64,000 bases of DNA, taken from Vibrio sp. B1FLJ16 (lineage in GTDB: Bacteria; Pseudomonadota; Gammaproteobacteria; Enterobacterales; Vibrionaceae). Position 1 is the first letter of the stretch; every line of letters begins with the position of its first letter. Shown piece after piece: positions 53,772-62,150 of the stretch. The position numbers and the translations under genes were made by a program. The DNA lies in the NCBI RefSeq assembly GCF_905175385.1, contig NZ_HG992750.1, positions 1,302,001 through 1,366,000 on the forward strand, written 5' to 3'. Below the pieces are notes generated by a model. It was not told the DNA's origin and ran no database searches. It was given only the letters and a program-made list of their open reading frames with translations.

Positions 53772-53803
53772 TTAAGTGCAAGAAATACGTATTCCGAGTT
53801 GTA

Positions 53804-54226
53804 TTAGATTGCTTCACCATTGACAGCCAGTTGTACGTCGATGTTGCCACGAACTGCGTTTGAGTAAGGGCATACCTGATGTGCCACCCGAACTAACTCA
53901 AGCGCTTGCTCTTGTGGCAACTCTAGTGAAACAGAAATACTTACCGTTAAAGCAAAACCACCTTGTTCATTTGGAACAATACCCACTTCCGCCGTAACAG
54001 GCGCTTGTTTAATGGCGACCTTAGCTTCGCGCGCGACATGGAATATTGCATTTGAAAAACAAGCAGAGTATCCAGCAGCAAACAGTTGCTCAGGGTTTGT
54101 TGCAGTACCTGAGCCTCCCATCTCTTTCGGGTAAGAAAGATCAAGATCTAACAGGCCGTCATTGGTTTTTACTTGACCATTGCGGCCAGCTGATGCGGTA
54201 GCTTGAGTTTTGTATAACGTAGTCAT
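53804..54226 (-). CDS. ohr: Organic hydroperoxide resistance protein Ohr
   Basis: 140 residues. The two redox cysteines lie in LFAAGYSACFSNAIFHVARE and VAHQVCPYSNAVRGN, and LYKTQATASAGRNGQVKTND opens the protein, all as in Ohr. It reduces organic and fatty-acid hydroperoxides using a lipoylated partner. It diverges from ohrR, and two palindromes lie between the genes. Confidence 0.95.
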   Translation of the reverse strand: MTTLYKTQATASAGRNGQVKTNDGLLDLDLSYPKEMGGSGTATNPEQLFAAGYSACFSNAIFHVAREAKVAIKQAPVTAEVGIVPNEQGGFALTVSISVSLELPQEQALELVRVAHQVCPYSNAVRGNIDVQLAVNGEAI

Positions 54227-54254
54227 TGGTTACTCCACCATTTTAAGTTGTGTG

Positions 54255-54317
54255 CAATTTAATTGTTTACAATGTTAAATCGAAATAAAGGTAGAATACA
54301 AGTATATTGTGCACAAT
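54255..54317. promoter_or_regulatory. OhrR operator region with two dyads
   Basis: CAATTTAATTG (54255-54265) and the perfect palindrome ATTGTGCACAAT (54306-54317) lie in the 112-base ohr-ohrR gap. Known OhrR operators have the form TACAATTAAATTGTA, which resembles the first dyad. Confidence 0.6.
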
Positions 54318-54338
54318 TTATTTTTTGAGGGTAATACG

Positions 54339-54800
54339 ATGAGTAATTGTAAAGAGGACACACCACTATCGGCTGATGAGAGTCTATTGCTCGATAATCA
54401 GGTCTGTTTTCCACTTTACAGCGCTTCAAACGCGATCATCCGTACTTATCGTCCCTTGCTTGATAAGCTCGATCTTACTTACTCACAGTACTTAGTCATG
54501 ATGGTGCTTTGGGAAAGTGATGGTATCAGCGTGAAAGACATCGGCGCGAGGCTGCACCTCGACTCTGGTACGCTGACCCCTTTATTAAAAAGGTTGGAAT
54601 TGAAAGGCTATATCGTTCGTGCCCGAAGTGAAAGCGATGAGCGAGTAAGAGTATTAAAGCTGAGCAACGAAGGCGTGCTCTTGAAACAAAAAGCGCTCTC
54701 AGTACCTACTCAAATGAAATGCAAGATTCCCCTTGAGCTCAATGAACTGATCCTATTAAAACAGTTATGTGAAAAGGTAATTCACACACTCGATGACTAA
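54339..54800 (+). CDS. ohrR: MarR-family peroxide sensor OhrR
   Basis: 153 residues from the ATG at 54339 (MSNCKEDTPLSAD), which has GAGGG five bases upstream; an earlier ATG at 54309 lies in the operator. The peroxide-sensing Cys is in LLLDNQVCFPLYSASNAI, and the winged helix is at VKDIGARLHLDSGTLTPLLK. OhrR represses ohr until its Cys is oxidised by an organic hydroperoxide. Confidence 0.93.
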   Translation: MSNCKEDTPLSADESLLLDNQVCFPLYSASNAIIRTYRPLLDKLDLTYSQYLVMMVLWESDGISVKDIGARLHLDSGTLTPLLKRLELKGYIVRARSESDERVRVLKLSNEGVLLKQKALSVPTQMKCKIPLELNELILLKQLCEKVIHTLDD

Positions 54801-55399
54801 CGTGGTTCACCTAAACTGACGGTAAGAAACTTTTTAGTTCGAGCACCAACTCATAGACACTTTATCCAGACACCCCAAACGTGCATCTTGGGTTTTCTGT
54901 TGATGGACGGTTCCGGTGTTTACCCGAATATGGTGTCACGCTTCTCAACCTAACGCACTCGTTCCCAGTTAGAAGCGCCCCTCAAACAGAATGATCATAC
55001 AAGAAAAGCGATGTTTGTCATTACTGATGTCTTTACTGATGTCTTTACTGATGGAACTCGTTTCTGGACAAAAATGTGTCAGTGATTTTTCTAATTTAGA
55101 AAATTATGAATTATCTCAGGTATGGCAAAAAGAGCTCAATAAGCACTGGAAAGTGATTTAGAAGTTGGTGTTAAAAAGTTGAATGAAGTTTTCCACTCAT
55201 AATCGATTGATCCCCAATTCAAACCTTGAAGGTACGAGTCACCGTAGACAAGTACCAGAAATTCATCTGACTTCGAGTCGATTGAAAGAAGTTAGTGCGA
55301 ATATAGCTGAGTTATCACTTGAGATGAGATAGTAGATGTATTAGAACCAGTTAGTAAATGTCTGACTGGTTCAATTCGTAAATCTAAAGTTGGATTCTA
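54801..55399. other. Intergenic region at the edge of an accessory island
   Basis: 599 bases. A small tandem repeat (ACTGATGTCTTT at 55023 and 55035, then a partial unit) opens a 44-residue frame at 55027-55161 (MSLLMSLLMELVSGQKCVSD). With one base changed near 55145 the frame could run to KKLNEVFHS at about 55201. It may be a broken small gene. The rest shows nothing recognisable. Confidence 0.4.
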
Positions 55400-56770
55400 T
55401 CAGGTCAGAAAATTAATAAGTTGTTCTTGGAATTTAGAAACCCCTTCTGGATTTGTTTTTTGAAGGAGAGCGTAAATATCTGGCTCTGACATCAAAGGGG
55501 ATGAACTATGCTTAAATTTAGTTAGCTGACTATATAAATTTTTTGCTCTGTCGGTTTCTTTTTTATTTTTTATCTCCCTTAAGCCATCAATGACAATTTT
55601 TCCTTCCATATATTGATTATAAACTTCCATTTCAATATTGGTAAAGGGCAAAAAAACTATATTTTCCATCTCTTTTAGATAGCCTTTACCCTTTTGATCA
55701 CCATCTAATACTGCTATTATGTTTTCTTCAGTTGAGAAAAATTTAGATTCAGAATTTCTTTTTATTAAGTCTACTACTTGAGTGGCTCCGCCTATGTATA
55801 TAATCTCATACTTAAAATAAGTGTTAATCCCTGAATTCCTTATCAAATATTGCATATAATTCTTGAGGCACTCATCTTCGGTTAATATGTATTTATCGAA
55901 TCCAGCAAATCCATACATTACACTTTTTATGTAATTATATGATTTGGGGTGAATGATTATTTCATGACCATCTGTTGAAATCTCCATATAGAATATTTCA
56001 TCTTTTTTTAACGTTTTCATTAATGCCAATGAATGCGTAGTAAAAATGATATTTGTATTGTGTTCTCTACATAGTTTTCTCAAGGAATTAACGAGATTAA
56101 CTTGTGCCATTGCATCTAATGAAATATCTATTTCATCGATAACAATGAGCTTTTTCCCTTGCTTGATCTGTTTATAGAGATTGACAACAAAGTATTCACC
56201 AGAACTAAAATAGTCTTCTCTAATGTAAAACCGCTCGTCGTCATCTCTTAGTATGACATAGTATGTAGACTTATTTAGGTTTATTTCTTTTAAAGATCGA
56301 AACCGATCTTCTCCATAAATATCATTAAGCAACCTAATGAGTTCATAGGGAGTGCTGTAGTTAGTATTTGCAATATGAGCCCTAATCTCTTCATCCTTAT
56401 CAGATAAACTTTTAAAATGCTTAAATCTCTCTCCATGAGGTATAGGCAACTCAACATTGATTATTCCTTTTATATCCTCTGGTATAGATTGCCTAGTATC
56501 AATTGCTTTTATAAAGCGATTGTAATTAAAAACTATCTCTTCCATACCCTCTATAACATAAGATATTGAGCTACTTTGACTAAAAATATAAGGAGCAGCA
56601 GTCTCTTGAAATGTACTATTTATAGGTAAATTTCTGATTGCTCGGATTAAGGTTGTTTTTCCCACCCCGTTTTTACCAGCAATACAAGTAATTCCATTCT
56701 TAGATAAATCAAACGTCACTTCTTGCTTTTTTATATGTTGAACATTTTTAACTGTGATTTTGATTTTCAA
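55400..56770 (-). CDS. OLD-like AAA ATPase with TOPRIM nuclease domain, RT partner
   Basis: 456 residues. Walker A CIAGKNGVGKTTLIRAIRNL, a signature-like SSGEYFVVNLYKQIKQ, Walker B KKLIVIDEIDISLDAMAQVN and the H-loop FTTHSLALM give an SMC/AAA15-21-type ATPase split by about 120 residues of helical insert. The C-terminal part has TEDECLKNYMQYL and IIAVLDGDQKGKG, the acidic motifs of a TOPRIM nuclease fold (OLD/DUF4435 type). It starts two bases after the reverse-transcriptase gene. Together they resemble the effector arrangement of some retrons (Retron-Eco8 has an OLD-type effector), in which the ATPase-nuclease acts against phage. Confidence 0.8.
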   Translation of the reverse strand: MKIKITVKNVQHIKKQEVTFDLSKNGITCIAGKNGVGKTTLIRAIRNLPINSTFQETAAPYIFSQSSSISYVIEGMEEIVFNYNRFIKAIDTRQSIPEDIKGIINVELPIPHGERFKHFKSLSDKDEEIRAHIANTNYSTPYELIRLLNDIYGEDRFRSLKEINLNKSTYYVILRDDDERFYIREDYFSSGEYFVVNLYKQIKQGKKLIVIDEIDISLDAMAQVNLVNSLRKLCREHNTNIIFTTHSLALMKTLKKDEIFYMEISTDGHEIIIHPKSYNYIKSVMYGFAGFDKYILTEDECLKNYMQYLIRNSGINTYFKYEIIYIGGATQVVDLIKRNSESKFFSTEENIIAVLDGDQKGKGYLKEMENIVFLPFTNIEMEVYNQYMEGKIVIDGLREIKNKKETDRAKNLYSQLTKFKHSSSPLMSEPDIYALLQKTNPEGVSKFQEQLINFLT

Positions 56771-56772
56771 TT

Positions 56773-57789
56773 TTACTTAACCGCTTTTCTAATAAACATA
56801 TCAATTATGGTGTTACCATATTTTTTTCTTAGCTTCGAAATATAATCTTTATCCATAGCATTAAAAGAAATCAACTTCCCAGATAATGATGATATAGCTA
56901 ATTCTCGTATAGGCTTTCCTTCAGAATTCTCTATCTTATTATTTGATGATATATTCTTGAATAGGTCTTCAAACTTTTCATTATCGGTTAAATAGAAATA
57001 AATTAGAGATTCAACTTCCTTTTTATCCGAACTTGGTATCGTAACAATCCCATTTGGCAGAATTGAAAAACCAAGTAGTTTAAAGCTATGTCCTTTCTTA
57101 TGAAACTTTGTTTTTGCACGATTTATTTTTATTTTTTCATTAACAAAATGATTTAGGTAATTAGATACTACATTTTCGATTTCGACTTCAAATCCATCAT
57201 CAGAACCAGATATTATTATATCATCTGAGTATCTCGTATAAATCAAGAAGTTATCTTTACAGTATTTCAAAAGAGCGTTATCAAAATCAAACAAGCAAAT
57301 ATTACTGAGCAAAGGAGATGTCCCAAAACCTGTCGGTAATTGATCATCAACAACAACAAGATTAACGATATTATCGATATAATTTTCAATATCTAAAACA
57401 GGGGTATTATTTAGCTGACATCTTAGAGATTTATAGATATTTTCCAATCTGACATTATTGTAGAAATTTGAAATATCAGTTTGAAAGAAGTAGTTGCTAG
57501 CAGAGTGCTTCTCAATAGCATCTCGTGTGCTAACACCTTTTCGGTATGAATAAACAACGTCACGGTTATAATCTGCATACTCAAAAATAGTTTTATTGAT
57601 AAAACGGTGGATTGCTTTCAGTTTTGATGAAGGTGCATACACTTCCCGCTTATTCAGTTGGATACGCTTGAATTCATCGCTAACATTAAGTGTCAGAAAC
57701 TCATTAAACGACATTTTATCGTGAAACGTCGATATAAAAATGTCATTCAATGGTCGTTTTTGATTAGCTTCCAATTGATTTGCGCTCAC
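56773..57789 (-). CDS. Reverse transcriptase (retron-like or unassigned defence group)
   Basis: 338 residues from a GTG at 57789 (MSANQLEANQKRP), preceded by no clear ribosome site. The palm motifs are intact: YFFQTDISNFYNNVRL (first Asp), LPTGFGTSPLLSNICLFDFD, YTRYSDDIIISG (YxDD) and INRAKTKFHKKGHSF with LLGFS. Upstream of the first Asp, RDAIEKHSAS aligns with the retron NAxxH motif but differs, and no VTG is seen near the C-terminus (GFSILPNGIVT in its place). So it is a bacterial RT of retron size but may belong to an uncommon clade. It is the first gene of the two-gene operon. Confidence 0.85.
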   Translation of the reverse strand: MSANQLEANQKRPLNDIFISTFHDKMSFNEFLTLNVSDEFKRIQLNKREVYAPSSKLKAIHRFINKTIFEYADYNRDVVYSYRKGVSTRDAIEKHSASNYFFQTDISNFYNNVRLENIYKSLRCQLNNTPVLDIENYIDNIVNLVVVDDQLPTGFGTSPLLSNICLFDFDNALLKYCKDNFLIYTRYSDDIIISGSDDGFEVEIENVVSNYLNHFVNEKIKINRAKTKFHKKGHSFKLLGFSILPNGIVTIPSSDKKEVESLIYFYLTDNEKFEDLFKNISSNNKIENSEGKPIRELAISSLSGKLISFNAMDKDYISKLRKKYGNTIIDMFIRKAVK

Positions 57790-57809
57790 GTAATGAAAAT
57801 TATTTCAAT

Positions 57810-58100
57810 AGTTTACCGAGATAAATCCGATTTCGCTAGCGATTAGTAATTATAGGGAGGTAATGTATAACACACTATGGTTGTGAAAAGACTTTCCCAA
57901 AACAGAAGTAGTGGAGCGTACGTTGATCGTAGGTACGCAGGTTAGATAGAGGTTAGAGGTTACATTCTTACGTCATTCACTAGCTAAACAATGACAGTAA
58001 ATGACGTAAGGGCAACATTAATTATAGCCTGTAGGGACCTAGCATAATGACTGGAGATACTCCTAGTCACTAGGTATGTCTATAAGATACACATAAATCG
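57810..58100 (-). ncRNA. Candidate structured RNA (msr-msd-like) upstream of the RT
   Basis: Minus-strand transcripts of this non-coding stretch would fold strongly. A 15-bp stem with one G-U pair and a 14-nt loop joins 57967-57981 to 57996-58010. A compound stem (ACCTAG/CTAGGT, TGACT/AGTCA, GGAG/CTCC) spans 58037-58075. GCGTAC pairs with GTACGC at 57916-57938. A 7-base pairing of CCGATTT (58094-58100) with AAATCGG (57828-57834) could close the ends as retron a1/a2, but seven bases is weak. Position and hairpins fit a retron RNA template; no sequence homologue is recognised. Confidence 0.35.
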
Positions 58101-58297
58101 GCGGCATTTCAACTAGATCCCCCATGTCCAAATCCTAAACCCTAGGAGGTCATATTAGACTGCTCTAGCTATCACCTATCAGACCTGACGTCCCCAACAT
58201 AGCTTTCCCGTCTGGGCGTCCCCCGTTCTCTGAGCTGATTTTAGTGCTTCCTGATGATGCTGAAGGCATTTGCTCTGATAGTGATTGAGAGATCAAT

Positions 58298-58486
58298 ATG
58301 ATATTAGAAAATGTAAGTCAAGAGATTGAGCTGAGAGACAACTATTTAGTGGGTTTAACTAACCTTGGGGCACTTTTGAGTTACCAAGTGCCAACTGTGA
58401 AGATTCTGTACGGAAACCTGTTTGAAGATGGCCTAGTGAATGTCAGAAAATGGCATAGAATTACCGACTTTAGCAGGCGGTGTTGA
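58298..58486 (+). CDS. Short ORF before the IS-interrupted gene
   Basis: A 62-residue frame (MILENVSQEIELRDNYLVGL, then TNLGALLSYQV), of which the last residues come from the IS end. Before the insertion it would have ended DFSN. The first 47 residues look protein-like, with a weak resemblance to the start of GAF-domain proteins. It overlaps the next gene start at 58440. It may be a truncated or broken gene. Confidence 0.25.
   Translation: MILENVSQEIELRDNYLVGLTNLGALLSYQVPTVKILYGNLFEDGLVNVRKWHRITDFSRRC
58467..58475. repeat. Left 9-bp target duplication of the IS
   Basis: ACTTTAGCA, identical to the copy at 59518-59526, directly abuts the left inverted repeat of the IS element. A 9-bp duplication is typical of the IS903 group. 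Confidence 0.95.
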
Positions 58487-59517
58487 TCAAATCAGGTGAA
58501 GGATAGATCTTGCCTACGCTCTATCACCATTAGTTTCGAACGGGCATACCTAGCCCTATGACTTTGTTCATGGCTTTGACATTAGCAAGCGCTTCACCTA
58601 CTTGAGCATTGTAGTTTCTTAAGCTCAACTGACCACTGGTTAGCCCTTTGTATCGTGACATTGCCGTTTCAGATAAAGACCGATCGTGATAACCAGAGTT
58701 AATTTTCCATTGAGCTAACGTATCACTTTTTAAGGCTTTCACTGCTTCGTTTCTTGGGTGTCCATCAACCCAGAAGCCAGCATTTTTACGCGGTGGTATT
58801 AACGGAATAATGCCTTTCCGTTGCAACACTTTATGACATTCCTTCGTATCGTATGCACCATCGCCAGAGACTGAACCAATTTTTCTTCGTAATGGATTAA
58901 GCAGCGTCGGAAGCACTTCACTATCACCGACATTAACCAAGCTCACTTCAGCACTGATGACTTCATGTGTATCAACATCGACAGCAAGATGTAGTTTGCG
59001 CCATGTTCTGCGCTTTTCATTGCCATGCTTTTTAACTTTCCATTCTCCCTCTCCAAATACTTTAAGACCTTTAGAGTCAATGGCGATATGACGGATGCTG
59101 CCTTTAGATTTATTACGATACCGTACTTGCACCGTCTTTGCCCGTTTACTAATACAAGTGTAATCAGGTGAAATTAACGGCACGTTCATCAGCTTAAAAA
59201 TGGAGTCGATGAAGCCTTGAAGCGCACGAAGCGGAAGAGAGAAAATACCTTTATCATAAGGGCAGTCTCGATTGCCGTATCTGAGTATTGAAAACCTCTG
59301 CCTCGCTTCCCGTGATGCTTCGTACATTTCCACGCTTTAACGGCTGAGTCATCAATCCAAAAAGTCACGCTGCCACGTTGACATAATGCACGGTTGTACT
59401 CGCTCCAGTTTGTGATTTTAGCTTTTGACTTACCCATTTCTTTGCTCGTTCAATCATAGATATGAGATCAGATCGCGACGAGCTCAAAAGGTTCAATTCG
59501 ATTTAGGCAACAACGCC
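58476..59517 (-). mobile_element. IS5-family (IS903-like) insertion sequence, complete
   Basis: 1042 bases. Terminal inverted repeats GGCGGTGTTGATCAAATC (58476-58493) and the complement of GATTTAGGCAACAACGCC (59500-59517) match at 14 of 18 positions. Both resemble the ends of IS903. A perfect 9-bp target duplication flanks it. It carries one transposase gene, frameshifted as sequenced. Confidence 0.93.
58530..59437 (-). pseudogene. IS5-family transposase, frameshifted at an A run
   Basis: The first frame from 59437 (MGKSKAKITNWSEYNRALCQ, RGSVTFWIDDSAVKAW) reads to about TALMIK and then leaves the family sequence. The second frame continues GIFSLPLRALQGFIDSIFKL to the end. Restoring one A near 59250 (A3 to A4) joins them into a transposase of about 302 residues. 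The DDE motif is visible in HIAIDSKGLK, SVSGDGAYDT and RSLSETAMSRYKG. Programmed frameshifting is known in some IS5 groups, but I see no canonical slippery site here, so a sequencing error or mutation is more likely. Confidence 0.9.
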
Positions 59518-59526
59518 ACTTTAGCA
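59518..59526. repeat. Right 9-bp target duplication of the IS
   Basis: ACTTTAGCA, identical to 58467-58475, next to the right inverted repeat. Confidence 0.95.
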
Positions 59527-60020
59527 ACTAAATTTCTACTACGCTCTGCACCTGATAGTGATAGAATCTCCGCATCAAAATTATCGAGCAACTCTATGTT
59601 TATCCATCATGTTAACGGCATCGACTGGCTGGTGATTACAGCTTTTGAAGAACTGAAACCTATATTCATCGAAGACGCTGGTGCGATCCCCTCTTGCTTC
59701 TCTATCGCCAGCGAATTGAACCTGATTGTTCAAGCCAAGCGTGTTTATGGATATTTACCTACACTCAGCGGCGTGATCACAGATACCGGCACGTTTCAAA
59801 GCCAAGATAACGAGGAAGATTTGAATCCACAGCTAGCATGCCTAGTCGAGGGGCGTGGTCGCGTGTTTATCTATCACGGCGGTTTTGTAGCTTTTGTGGA
59901 TGATGATCAAACCTTTATTACCCGAATGGACTGAAACTTATTCAATACGTTGAAATCGACGAATTGGAATACCTAGCCGTTTATCCGCAGCGTTTCATTT
60001 ATTAACAGGATGCGAATTGA

Positions 60021-60158
60021 ATGAAGTCTGCTCCTACCTTCAATAAGAAAGGCAATGTTGCGATTAACATGCGAGGTGCATCACTAGCAAATGGGGCACA
60101 AAATTTTAAAGTGCTCACACCGGCTATGTGGTCACCAAGCGATTTGCTAGCTGACTGA
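60021..60158 (+). CDS. Possible small protein of unknown function
   Basis: 45 residues (MKSAPTFNKKGNVAINMRGA, then VLTPAMWSPSDLLAD), with AGGA 12 bases upstream. It starts 15 bases after the repaired stop of the interrupted gene, so the two could have formed an operon. No family recognised. The 155 bases after it, before the AraC gene, show nothing. Confidence 0.3.
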   Translation: MKSAPTFNKKGNVAINMRGASLANGAQNFKVLTPAMWSPSDLLAD

Positions 60159-60312
60159 ACCATGGACACTGGACATTTTACAGCACCTAAAGCTAACCTT
60201 AATTCTGTTATTTAGTGTCGCTAAAACATAGCAGGAGAACAACCCTATCCGCCTGCTTATTCATAAACTTCGCACTACCTATTCGGTAGGGTCTTATCTG
60301 TTAATAGTAAAA

Positions 60313-61121
60313 CTATGACAAGCGATTCTTGTACTGCTCCGGTGTCATACCGGAATATTTCTTAAACATTGAAATAAAAGGACTTGCCTGATTGTAACCT
60401 AACGTCAGTGCGACTTCTTTTACCGTTTGTCCCTTACGAAGCAGCTCCATAGAATAAAGATACCTCACCCGTAATCTCCATTCGGTAAAACTCATCCCTA
60501 ACTCACTCTGACAGTGACGCGCTAATGTTCGCTCCGTGGTATGCACCTTTGTCGCCCACTCTGCCAGACTGATTTCATCAGTCGGCGATTTTCCACCGCC
60601 TTAAGAATCGGTTCCAGATATTTATTGTCTGTCGTCGGCAGGAAATGATGTTCCACTTCTTGTTTTGCCAGCTGGTCAAGAAGCACCTGAACTAAACGCT
60701 TGTCCTCGTCACTTTGTGCGACATTAATATCACGCTGACGAAAGTCTTCAATAATCGCAGCAATAATCGGGGTGACCTTAATTAAGCTGGTTTTGGTCGG
60801 GAAATGCGCCGTTAACTCTGGAGAGATATTCAAAGAACAGTATTCAATAGGCTTGCGGTTATAGCTGGTATGTCGAATACCGGCTGGCACCCAGATTGCC
60901 AAATGTGGCGGCGCCAGGAAGCGAGTATCTTCTGCATCCATTTCCAAAATACCGCCGCTAATCAGCTGCACCTGCCCCCAAGGATGACTGTGAATTCGGG
61001 TCTCCGTGTTTGAAAGGAAAGCTTCGAAATTCATAAATACATCGGATGGTGCGCGGTCAATAGATAATGACGGATGCAGGTTGCGCGAACTCTTTTTCAA
61101 ACTGGTCTTCCTATCGCTCAA
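60313..61121 (-). pseudogene. AraC-family regulator, frameshifted as sequenced
   Basis: The first frame from a TTG at 61121 (SDRKTSLKKSSRN) carries the cupin arm (HSHPWGQVQLISGGILEMDA, then HLAIWVPAGIRHTSY) and shifts near 60584. The second frame gives the C-terminal helix-turn-helix pair (HTTERTLARHCQSELGMSFT, VALTLGYNQASPFISMFKKY). Adding one C near 60584 joins them with the bridge RPTDEISLAEWATKV, a normal AraC pattern, for a protein of about 269 residues. The start may be the TTG, while the duplicated copy at 62156-62261 has ATG in that place. Confidence 0.85.
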
Positions 61122-61190
61122 TACGTCTTTTCAGAGATATTTTTCATTATAAAGACCAGCCAGACTTCCGTCATCCATTATTACGTTATA
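61085..61190. repeat. Copy 1 of a duplicated AraC start/promoter segment
   Basis: This segment covers the first codons and upstream region of the AraC gene. It aligns without gaps to 62156-62261 at about 80 percent identity (my hand count). Confidence 0.85.
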
Positions 61191-61268
61191 CACTGTTTGG
61201 CCTTGAAGTCATTTGGGGATAGCGATGAGTTTTGTTAAAGTAATGAAAACTCAAATGATTAATTAAAT

Positions 61269-62150
61269 ATGTCTATTAGTTGGATAGCGTTTACTCTTCT
61301 CGCTGCATTTAGTCAGTCTTGGCGAAACGCATTTACCAGTAAGCTAAGTAATACAATGAGTGTGGCAGGTGTCACCCTTTCTCGTTTTATTCTGGCTGGA
61401 CCTATCGCATTACTTTACCTCTTCGCCCTTTATCAATGGCAACCGCAGCCTATACCAAACTTCTCTACTCACTTTATTTTTTACACGATAGCGGCTGCAA
61501 TAGCGCAAATACTTGCAACAGGTCTATTGGTTCTTTTATTTAGGCTAAAAAACTATGCCATTGGTGCTGGACTTGCAAAGTGTGAGGCGCCTGTTTCTGC
61601 AATTATTGGCGTGCTATTTTTTGGTACTATATTGTCTACTACCGGTTGGCTTGGTGTAGTGATTGGTACTTTGGGTATACTCTTAATGAGCAGTTCTTCG
61701 AGTTGGCGAAACTTCTCATTTGAGACATTATTCTTAGGTATTGCTTGCAGTATCGCTTTCGCTTTGGCCTCTCTTTGGGTACGCGAAGCAAGTCTGAGTA
61801 TCGGACTCCCTTTCCCTCATAGTGCTGCTTGGGTGTTATTTCTAATCATTACACTTCAAACTTTGGTTATTGGTACTTATCTTCTATTGCGCGAGCCTCA
61901 AACTTTTCTTAAGATGGTAAAAAACGCCAAACTCGTTGCGATGACGAGCCTATCAAGTGTGATCGGCTCAATTGGTTGGTTTAGCGCAATGTCACTCCAA
62001 GCTGTGCCATACGTAAAGACACTAGGGCAGATTGAGATCGTATTCATGGTTTTAATATCTTATTTTTGGTTTGGGCAGAGAATTGCTCTCAAAGACATTA
62101 CCGCGCTGATCCTGATCTCAATCGCAAGTGCCTTAGTTATGTGGCAATAG
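61269..62150 (+). CDS. DMT-superfamily (EamA) exporter
   Basis: 293 residues with ten membrane segments in two halves, for example SISWIAFTLLAAFSQSWRNA and LSRFILAGPIALLYLFALYQ at the N-terminus and VFMVLISYFWFGQRIALKDI near the end. It diverges from the AraC gene and starts about 150 bases from it. A duplicated AraC-start segment lies just after its stop, which suggests insertion of this gene between AraC and the next DMT gene. Substrate unknown. Confidence 0.85.
   Translation: MSISWIAFTLLAAFSQSWRNAFTSKLSNTMSVAGVTLSRFILAGPIALLYLFALYQWQPQPIPNFSTHFIFYTIAAAIAQILATGLLVLLFRLKNYAIGAGLAKCEAPVSAIIGVLFFGTILSTTGWLGVVIGTLGILLMSSSSSWRNFSFETLFLGIACSIAFALASLWVREASLSIGLPFPHSAAWVLFLIITLQTLVIGTYLLLREPQTFLKMVKNAKLVAMTSLSSVIGSIGWFSAMSLQAVPYVKTLGQIEIVFMVLISYFWFGQRIALKDITALILISIASALVMWQ

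Follow-up and report, generated by a model that had tools for sequence, protein, structure and literature searches.

A candidate type I-B1 anti-phage retron of Vibrio sp. B1FLJ16, with an ncRNA in which the a1/a2 helix was not found

The window, a stretch of 64,000 nucleotides of Vibrio sp. B1FLJ16 (contig NZ_HG992750.1, positions 1,302,001 to 1,366,000), holds a unit of a reverse transcriptase (RT), an OLD-type effector and a non-coding RNA (ncRNA). The features are listed below in window positions.

55052 to 58368, no strand: stretch common to the window and Photobacterium alginatilyticum (L004), 88% identity, with unrelated flanks
55400 to 56770, minus strand: OLD-type ATPase-TOPRIM effector, 456 aa (ORF with TTG start; PADLOC; invariant residues)
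56773 to 57789, minus strand: reverse transcriptase, 338 aa, YSDD (ORF with GTG start; PADLOC, fold, profile)
about 57959 to 58077, minus strand: msr-msd-like ncRNA, its 5' end predicted by the spacing to the promoter and its 3' end placed at the base of P3
57959 to 58016, minus strand: P3, long msd-like hairpin with GUUGC/GUAAC base
58032 to 58036, minus strand: linker motif CCCUA (C-N-C-U-A in 59/61 loci)
58037 to 58043, minus strand: P1, 3' arm (GCUAGGU)
58049 to 58068, minus strand: P2 hairpin GACUAGGAG-UAU-CUCCAGUC, 8 pairs, bulged A, 3-nt loop
58069 to 58075, minus strand: P1, 5' arm (ACCUAGU)
58084 to 58112, minus strand: predicted ncRNA promoter, TTGAAA (58112-58107), 17 nt, TATCTT (58089-58084)

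A first-pass annotation of this DNA had placed an RT with a YSDD motif at 56773-57789 and a partner gene two bases downstream; the 338-aa minus-strand ORF and the effector ORF, which starts two bases past the RT stop, confirm both. The best PADLOC model for the RT was RT_I-B (PDLC02937, 419 bits; next model 157.8), and that for the partner was ATPase-Toprim_I-B (PDLC02914, 583.8 bits; next model 79.2). A profile search of the PDB returned retron RTs as 14 of the best 15 matches (rank 13 was another RT domain), and the best 18 rows of a fold search were all retron entries. A group II intron RT or a DRT RT was rejected, as retron RTs rank above both by profile, fold and PADLOC models. The earlier idea of a retron-like unit with an ATPase-TOPRIM effector is thus supported by the I-B models and by profile and fold kinship. 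The choice that it left, between an uncommon clade of retrons and some other group of antiviral RTs, falls to a retron type that is already named (I-B1), with no new RT group involved. According to a passage of PMC10568477, the OLD-type gene lies downstream of the RT in type I-B1 and upstream in type I-B2 (Retron-Eco8); in the window it lies downstream. By its sequence, then, the unit belongs to an anti-phage kind that is recognised but has been little studied, and its protein pair is already known.

The RT carries RDAIEKH in place of NAxxH and LLG in place of VTG, an oddity remarked on before and now seen to be real and clade-wide. Among 67 related RTs the N of NAxxH is present in none and the H is kept in all, and VTG is likewise found in 0/67 (LLG in 38, ILG in 26, other residues in 3). 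In the passages concerned, NAXXH and VTG are each reported for 14/16 validated retrons, and for 59% and 47%, respectively, of 102 retron-like RTs (PMC6868368, PMC4244168). The four controls, other RTs of retron type, all have NAxxH, with VTG in three and ITG in one. In a quick tree, the I-B1 RTs form one side of a branch with four other retron-type RTs on the other (SH-aLRT 100); partial RTs (L064, L066, L069) and copies (L001, L002) were left out.

In the effector, G37-K38-T39, D212-E213, E298 and D356-G357-D358 are invariant in 29/29 aligned sequences, which bears out the Walker motifs and TOPRIM site claimed for the partner; we take the first to be Walker A, the second Walker B, and E298 with D356-G357-D358 to be the TOPRIM-type site. 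The gene pair is conserved: in 66/67 genome relatives (L003-L069; the record of L064 stops about 300 bases past the RT) the effector comes after the RT in the same orientation, and in 0/14 more distant RT loci (L070-L083) does it do so. The pairing is not due to chance, and it recurs in 12/13 viral contigs. The effector profile matched no PDB chain at E <= 1e-10, so kinship to the OLD protein of Eco8 rests on fold class. VIA-align covered residues 1-288 only, and thus says little on the TOPRIM half; the matches listed were SMC, Rad50, PtuA and AriA heads, and the absence of Eco8's OLD from these listed matches excludes nothing.

The AT-rich island noted in the first-pass annotation is clear, with a GC content of 0.32, 0.30 and 0.33 in the 1-kb bins of 55001-58000 against 0.43 in the bins either side. 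The insertion sequence (IS) reported with it does adjoin the unit, as a DDE transposase gene at 58530-59333 on the minus strand (PF01609, 2e-32) accompanied by a further ORF that runs in a different frame to 59437, but the IS lies outside the 3.3-kb stretch common with the Photobacterium genome. This stretch of the unit thus also occurs in another genus. To look for an empty site, 31 genomes were searched with the left flank (53800-54800) and the right flank (60300-61300), and none was found; where both flanks were listed (e.g., G206, G153 and G297), they were far apart or on different contigs. The RT is rare in the family (3/329 genomes at E <= 1e-60), and the protein database holds close homologues of the RT (98%) and the effector (99%).

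The unusual part of the unit is its ncRNA, which had escaped the first-pass annotation. A search with our model R1 scored 63.8 bits at 58009-58078, the window itself being among the 61 sequences behind R1; the fold of 57790-58100 has a z-score of -3.77, and Rfam gave no match over 55000-60500. From its 5' end, the RNA is arranged as a helix (P1) around the hairpin P2, then a CTA-containing linker, and then the long, variable hairpin P3. P1 covaries: five Watson-Crick pairs form in 45/60 loci through 13 different helices, against a mean of 6.1 and a maximum of 14 loci in 1000 permutations, which ignore relatedness. This count was made by script, because the MAFFT alignment (A3) puts P1 one column off in part of the clade; the register was chosen alike for data and permutations, L038 was omitted since its linker falls outside the anchor pattern, and column-pair counting from the alignment was used for P2 only. 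P2 is nearly invariant (8 bp and a 3-nt loop, with a 4-nt loop in four loci), its 100% pairing being partly circular because loci were picked by the P2 motif. P3 has a median of 22 bp (range 10-34 bp by RNAfold) and z < -2 in 61/61 loci. P2 and P3 thereby correspond to the textbook picture, in which an msr stem of some 8 bp closes on a short loop and an msd hairpin of 10-50 bp follows.

The ncRNA is conserved with the gene pair, being present in 64/66 genome relatives (L003-L068; 60 by motif and four more by model). The two outcomes that would have told against the first-pass annotation, no conserved RNA upstream and no lasting link between the two genes, have thus both gone in its favour. The two others were counted as misses (L059 with a partial match of 16.5 bits, L067 with no match); L069, L102 and L105 were not counted, as they lack sequence upstream, and L002 was dropped as lying on the same contig as L004. 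The model matched 0/31 loci with other RTs, type I-A loci among them. The P2 DNA motif alone, used as a query, found 11 viral contigs, 11/11 of which carry this RT. One genome (G171) has the ncRNA and no I-B RT. When 369 genomes of the class were scanned for a near-exact motif, with a strict pattern and a sample that is thin near the window, the window's own copy was the only match.

The predicted promoter of the window is no better than chance when taken singly, since promoter-like sites are as many in shuffled sequence. Its spacing to P2, however, is the same in 46/61 loci (the best -10-like hexamer lies elsewhere in 15/61), and by this spacing the RNA is predicted to start immediately ahead of P1. 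In textbook retrons, msr-msd and RT belong to a single transcriptional cassette. Here the two share a strand in the window and 47 other loci, and the ncRNA is on the opposite strand in 13/61, an inversion that maps to one change on the RT tree, in one sub-clade.

Paired RNA ends are described as the primer for the start of reverse transcription in textbook retrons. The pairing is between the 5' end of the msr and the 3' end of the msd, which are complementary (a1/a2; described in a passage of PMC6868368). When a1/a2 was sought in the 61 loci by three versions of the test, only 2, 1 and 4 loci reached p < 0.05, and the median p of 0.59-0.63 was like that of shuffles. In each of the three distinct type I-A controls, a1/a2 is in place (CTCTTTA/TAAAGAG). 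For any one locus the test has little power, as the p values of these very controls (0.006 to 0.098) show, and the three are all of type I-A. The textbook priming guanosine stands beside the first msr stem in an AGC-like context. Directly before P2, AGY occurs in 43/61 loci (TAGT in the window; CAGC or TAGC in 26). No G stands at the priming-like position in 11/61 loci, and the replacement, counted on the author's own list of these 11, took at least six changes on the tree with P1 pairing mostly kept.

These observations are best explained by a type I-B1 anti-phage retron composed of the RT, the OLD-type effector and a self-standing ncRNA gene, in which reverse transcription would proceed without an a1/a2 helix; we place the probability of this reading, as judged from sequence, at roughly 0.7. 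The unit could instead be an ordinary retron, with an a1/a2 helix that is short, mismatched or far from P3 and with the AGY before P2 supplying the usual priming guanosine. The frequency of AGY, and of CAGC or TAGC within it, speaks for this, as do a P2 that fits the Ec86 msr core of 8 bp and 3-nt loop (in a passage of PMC6868368) and the sequence of hairpin, CTCTA and msd, ordered as in type I-A. Since AGY resembles the textbook priming motif, canonical priming may survive in many loci. As a whole, this alternative is unlikely: no excess complementarity appeared in any of the three tests, whereas type I-A loci, scanned in much the same way, do show a1/a2; an RNA begun at the predicted start would have 2-3 nt available for a1; the guanosine is repeatedly replaced while P1 pairing mostly persists; and in the inverted loci the sequences past the P3 base (GTAGA in most) look mutually unrelated by eye.

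A non-retron mechanism would have the RT work without branched msDNA, for instance by starting from a protein or a free 3' end, or by priming on a different template, in the manner of DRT systems, with the RNA mainly a scaffold. The missing a1/a2, the clade-wide lack of NAxxH and VTG and the unfixed priming guanosine would fit, and a passage of PMC6868368 offers a precedent in Retron-Sen1 (Se72), described there with no apparent priming guanosine and no observed 2'-5' link. We consider this quite improbable, as profile, fold and PADLOC all place retron RTs closest to this RT, many retron RTs also do without the two motifs (a passage of PMC4244168), and the RNA has msr-like and msd-like parts in retron order. 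That the unit is a decayed copy, no longer working, as its rarity, the adjoining IS and the orphan ncRNA elsewhere might suggest, is very hard to credit against two intact ORFs with catalytic residues kept, intact RNA parts with P1 fully paired, and close database homologues of both proteins.

Under the type I-B1 reading, transcription would begin 2-3 nt ahead of P1, and the RT would bind the invariant P2 hairpin and copy P3 into single-stranded DNA that stays bound. Setting the priming nucleotide beside the template start, the task of an a1/a2 helix, would on our proposal fall to the RT together with the covarying P1. The resulting RT-RNA-DNA particle would keep the effector in check until a phage protein frees it; in the case of Eco8 the trigger is phage SSB (mechanism given in a passage of PMC12887533). 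The TOPRIM site would then cut DNA, and the infected cell would die before the phage is complete.

A more specific and tentative proposal, to which we give somewhat less than even odds, is that the I-B1 lineage lost a1/a2. The 5' arm would now pair within the msr (as P1), the priming G would be unfixed, and the RT with P1 would set up priming; in the protein, the altered NAxxH and VTG motifs would be the counterpart of this shift in the RNA. The ncRNA would be an independent gene, and could therefore be inverted once and kept so by a whole sub-clade.

The unit is a good test case for how such systems work, as its RNA seems to be without the end-pairing that starts DNA synthesis in textbook retrons. 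If a retron type without terminal pairing is real, its RT can set up priming another way, and the type is a natural system in which to learn how. A free-standing ncRNA gene working from either strand would be easier to re-engineer as a DNA-writing tool, and defence biology would gain a compact 456-aa OLD effector for comparison with the much larger one of Eco8. The literature searched, into which few subscription papers and few bioRxiv preprints outside PMC fell, yielded no account of a type I-B1 ncRNA, of an opposite-strand retron ncRNA or of I-B1 without a1/a2. The RNA may already be described in the founding classification paper (Mestre et al., 2020), in which case the value of the unit is reduced to that of a good illustration of a type already known.

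Among known systems, Retron-Sen1 (Se72) is likened to the unit by description, as a retron without an apparent priming guanosine (a passage of PMC6868368); its cold-shock-like ORF and double-stranded DNA product, compared likewise by description, set it apart from the unit. Retron-Eco8 (type I-B2, 'Class 3A OLD') shares the RT with retron fold, an OLD-type ATPase-TOPRIM effector and an ncRNA, and had been named as a parallel. The likeness holds for the pairing of such an effector with an RT but is otherwise loose, and Eco8's type proper (I-B2) was rejected for this unit. In the relevant passages, Eco8 has its OLD gene upstream (PMC10568477), with catalytic residues up to K693 and an RNA with IRa1/IRa2 and branching G18 (PMC12887533), whereas the window has a downstream OLD gene of 456 aa and no a1/a2 found. 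Furthermore, the Eco8 RT scores below type I-A RTs against the window RT. Type I-A (Ec78 and Ec83, with PtuA/PtuB effectors) has the closest solved RTs and shares the order of msr hairpin, CTCTA (CTCCA in L092) and long msd hairpin; its controls have a1/a2, a second nuclease gene and, where compared, NAxxH and VTG, all of which the window unit is without. In type I-B1 (PADLOC RT_I-B with ATPase-Toprim_I-B; 'Class 3B OLD'), the same proteins stand in the same order and at the same spacing, and no feature was seen that marks the window locus off within the type.

The unit is encoded on the minus strand within an AT-rich stretch, the GC content being 0.30-0.33 across 55001-58000 versus 0.43 in the adjoining bins. 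Its two genes and the three helical parts of its upstream non-coding RNA (ncRNA) are as follows.

56773-57789, minus strand: reverse transcriptase (RT), 338 aa, with YSDD
55400-56770, minus strand: ATPase-TOPRIM effector of OLD type, 456 aa, starting two bases past the RT
58075-58069 paired with 58043-58037, minus strand: P1, the covarying helix around P2
58068-58049, minus strand: P2 hairpin
58016-57959, minus strand: P3, a long msd-like hairpin after a linker

The protein pair belongs to an already known type. The top PADLOC models were RT_I-B for the RT (419 bits; runner-up 157.8) and ATPase-Toprim_I-B for the effector (583.8 bits; runner-up 79.2), and Pfam placed RVT_1 in the RT and AAA_21 and AAA_15 in the effector. 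The NCBIfam retron St85 model matched the RT at 163.6, under its cut-off of 235. According to PMC10568477, retrons with OLD downstream are type I-B1, and those with OLD upstream, including Eco8, are type I-B2. Under the rule as worded there, the window unit is type I-B1 because its OLD-type gene sits downstream. The predicted effector model (pLDDT 89.5) best matched the fold of the OLD nuclease 6p74, followed by GajA and the retron type I-A PtuA; its Walker residues, E298 and D356/D358 are invariant across all 29 aligned homologues.

Retron RTs made up 14 of the 15 best matches listed when the RT profile was compared with the PDB, led by type I-A and ending with Eco8 at ranks 14 and 15; rank 13 went to another RT domain. 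Lower ranks were taken by a Cas6-RT-Cas1 protein as well as by RTs of group II introns. The best 18 rows of a fold search with the predicted RT model (pLDDT 91) were all retron entries, and in a quick tree of 71 RTs a branch with an SH-aLRT of 100 set the I-B1 RTs apart from other retron RTs. At the NAxxH motif, the 67 related RTs invariably lack the N and keep the H, and their VTG position reads LLG in 38, ILG in 26 and some other triplet in 3. Four retron-type RTs from outside this group, used for comparison, keep NAxxH and either VTG or ITG. Among 102 retron-like RTs, PMC4244168 gives VTG for 47% and NAxxH for 59%. These motifs are thus not universal among retrons, and their loss alone is therefore no proof of a new mechanism.

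The effector follows the RT on the same strand in 66 of 67 genome relatives (L003-L069), the sole exception being L064, whose record stops about 300 bases past the RT. It was found next to none of 14 more distant RTs (L070-L083). On viral contigs it accompanies the I-B1 RT in 12 of 13 cases, and the sequence of the remaining one (L100) stops at the RT. I-B1 RTs also occur amid proteobacterial ones in metagenome-assembled genomes labelled Cytophagales (L040) and Streptococcus (L067), labels that reflect either mis-binning or rare transfer.

The ncRNA is similarly tied to this RT. The window and 60 relatives carry the motif GACTAGGAG-NNN-CTCC(A/G)GTC upstream of the RT, and a covariance model (R1) trained on these 61 loci added L003, L019, L034 and L044, giving the ncRNA in 64 of 66 relatives (L003-L068); the match in L059 was weak and partial (16.5 bits), and L067 gave none. 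Outside the training set, R1 matched L088, L089 and viral loci; among 31 loci that carry other RTs, some being near-copies of one another, it matched none (L070-L083, L084-L087, L090-L092, L106-L115). Its one strong match in the window is at 58009-58078 (minus). A P2 motif scan blind to protein returned 11 viral contigs, all carrying an I-B1 RT. Across 329 family genomes R1 matched five, three of which carry the RT. In the fourth (G237), the ncRNA lies about 220 bases from a contig end, within the last 290 bases of C82, and a separate contig (C43) carries a C-terminal fragment of the effector (E 8e-31), which suggests that an assembly gap over the RT has split the system. The fifth (G171), of the window's genus, holds an orphan copy (L146:3899-3965, 46 bits): the surrounding 8.5 kb contains neither an I-B1 RT nor an effector ORF, and RT_I-B matches nothing in that genome.

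P2, nearly invariant, consists of eight pairs with one bulged A, closed by a loop of 3 nt (4 nt in four loci); it is the size of the msr core that Ec86 RT binds, as described in PMC6868368. Around it, P1 forms five Watson-Crick pairs in its best register in 45 of 60 loci, with 13 different helices; 1000 permutations, which ignore relatedness, averaged 6.1 such loci and never exceeded 14. C-N-C-U-A follows 3' of P1 in 59/61 loci (CTCTG counted apart). After a linker comes the hairpin P3, 10-34 bp long (median 22), which varies in sequence between species and in 61/61 loci folds more stably than shuffles (z < -2). Type I-A ncRNAs (L084, L085, L092) have a similar order of hairpins, CTCTA or CTCCA, and long msd hairpin. 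At L050:3838-3906 (minus), CAAGACGCCG can pair with CGGCGTTTTG in place of P1, making a 10-bp helix that reaches across both P2 and the CTCTA linker.

The ends of textbook retron msr-msd RNA (a1/a2) pair and act as a primer, as stated in PMC6868368. Sequence lying 5' of P1 or P2 was matched to sequence lying 3' of P3, and the best duplex that the two could form was compared with shuffles. Using 25 against 40 nt, p < 0.05 was obtained in 2/61 loci (median p 0.63); the counts were 2/61 with the leader and P1 arm on the 5' side (median 0.52), 1/61 with 25 against 120 nt (0.63) and 4/61 when starting within the P3 arm (0.59). Seven consecutive Watson-Crick pairs within 45 nt occurred in L035 only. 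The type I-A controls L084, L085 (L087 near-identical) and L092 showed an 8-10 bp duplex at the right place (p = 0.006, 0.017, 0.021 and 0.064; 0.009, 0.021 and 0.098 in the P3-arm version), so the test has limited power per locus yet would detect a family-wide feature. In agreement, promoter spacing predicts an ncRNA start 2-3 nt before P1, given that, relative to P2, 46/61 loci have their best TAnnnT-type hexamer at -23 to -18, TTG lies near -43 and an A is common at -8. The window has a candidate promoter, TTGAAA-17-TATCTT, although such sites are no commoner in the region than in shuffles. AGY, resembling the textbook priming motif, precedes P2 in 43/61 loci (TAGT in the window). The G is absent in 11/61, the result of six or more changes on the RT tree, and P1 is mostly still paired in these loci; this argues against a fixed priming guanosine across loci; the window itself may retain one.

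The ncRNA is directed away from the RT in 13/61 loci, mostly in Betaproteobacteria, where R1 matches the minus strand only, as it does in viral loci L097 and L100. This inversion is one change on the RT tree (SH-aLRT 90). Since promoter and RNA turned together, the ncRNA probably forms an independent gene, which in inverted loci would be transcribed divergently from the RT. In L031, L035 and L042, the TATA-like hexamer of the ncRNA is also a TATAGT-like hexamer read toward the RT, and might serve both directions.

Window 55052-58368 gives an 88% alignment with Photobacterium alginatilyticum (L004), with unmatched flanks; the shared stretch ends in a 62-aa ORF (58298-58486) and in non-coding 55052-55399. 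The RT (E <= 1e-60) occurs in 3/329 family genomes, and a search with the window flanks found no empty site. Outside the transferred unit, 58530-59437 encodes a DDE transposase whose two frames, of 267 aa and 82 aa, overlap; this IS copy is therefore frameshifted or uses a frameshift.

A literature search, which did not reach the founding classification paper, gave no description of the I-B1 RNA architecture; as far as could be seen, this architecture is thus the new part, the proteins being of known type. For its working, the nearest guide is Eco8, which PMC12887533 describes as a complex of RT, msDNA and OLD in 4:4:4 ratio that cuts double-stranded DNA, requires the RT, OLD and priming G, and protects by abortive infection triggered by phage SSB. 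Parts of these three kinds make up the window unit as well, and our best guess by analogy is that it may follow the Eco8 logic.
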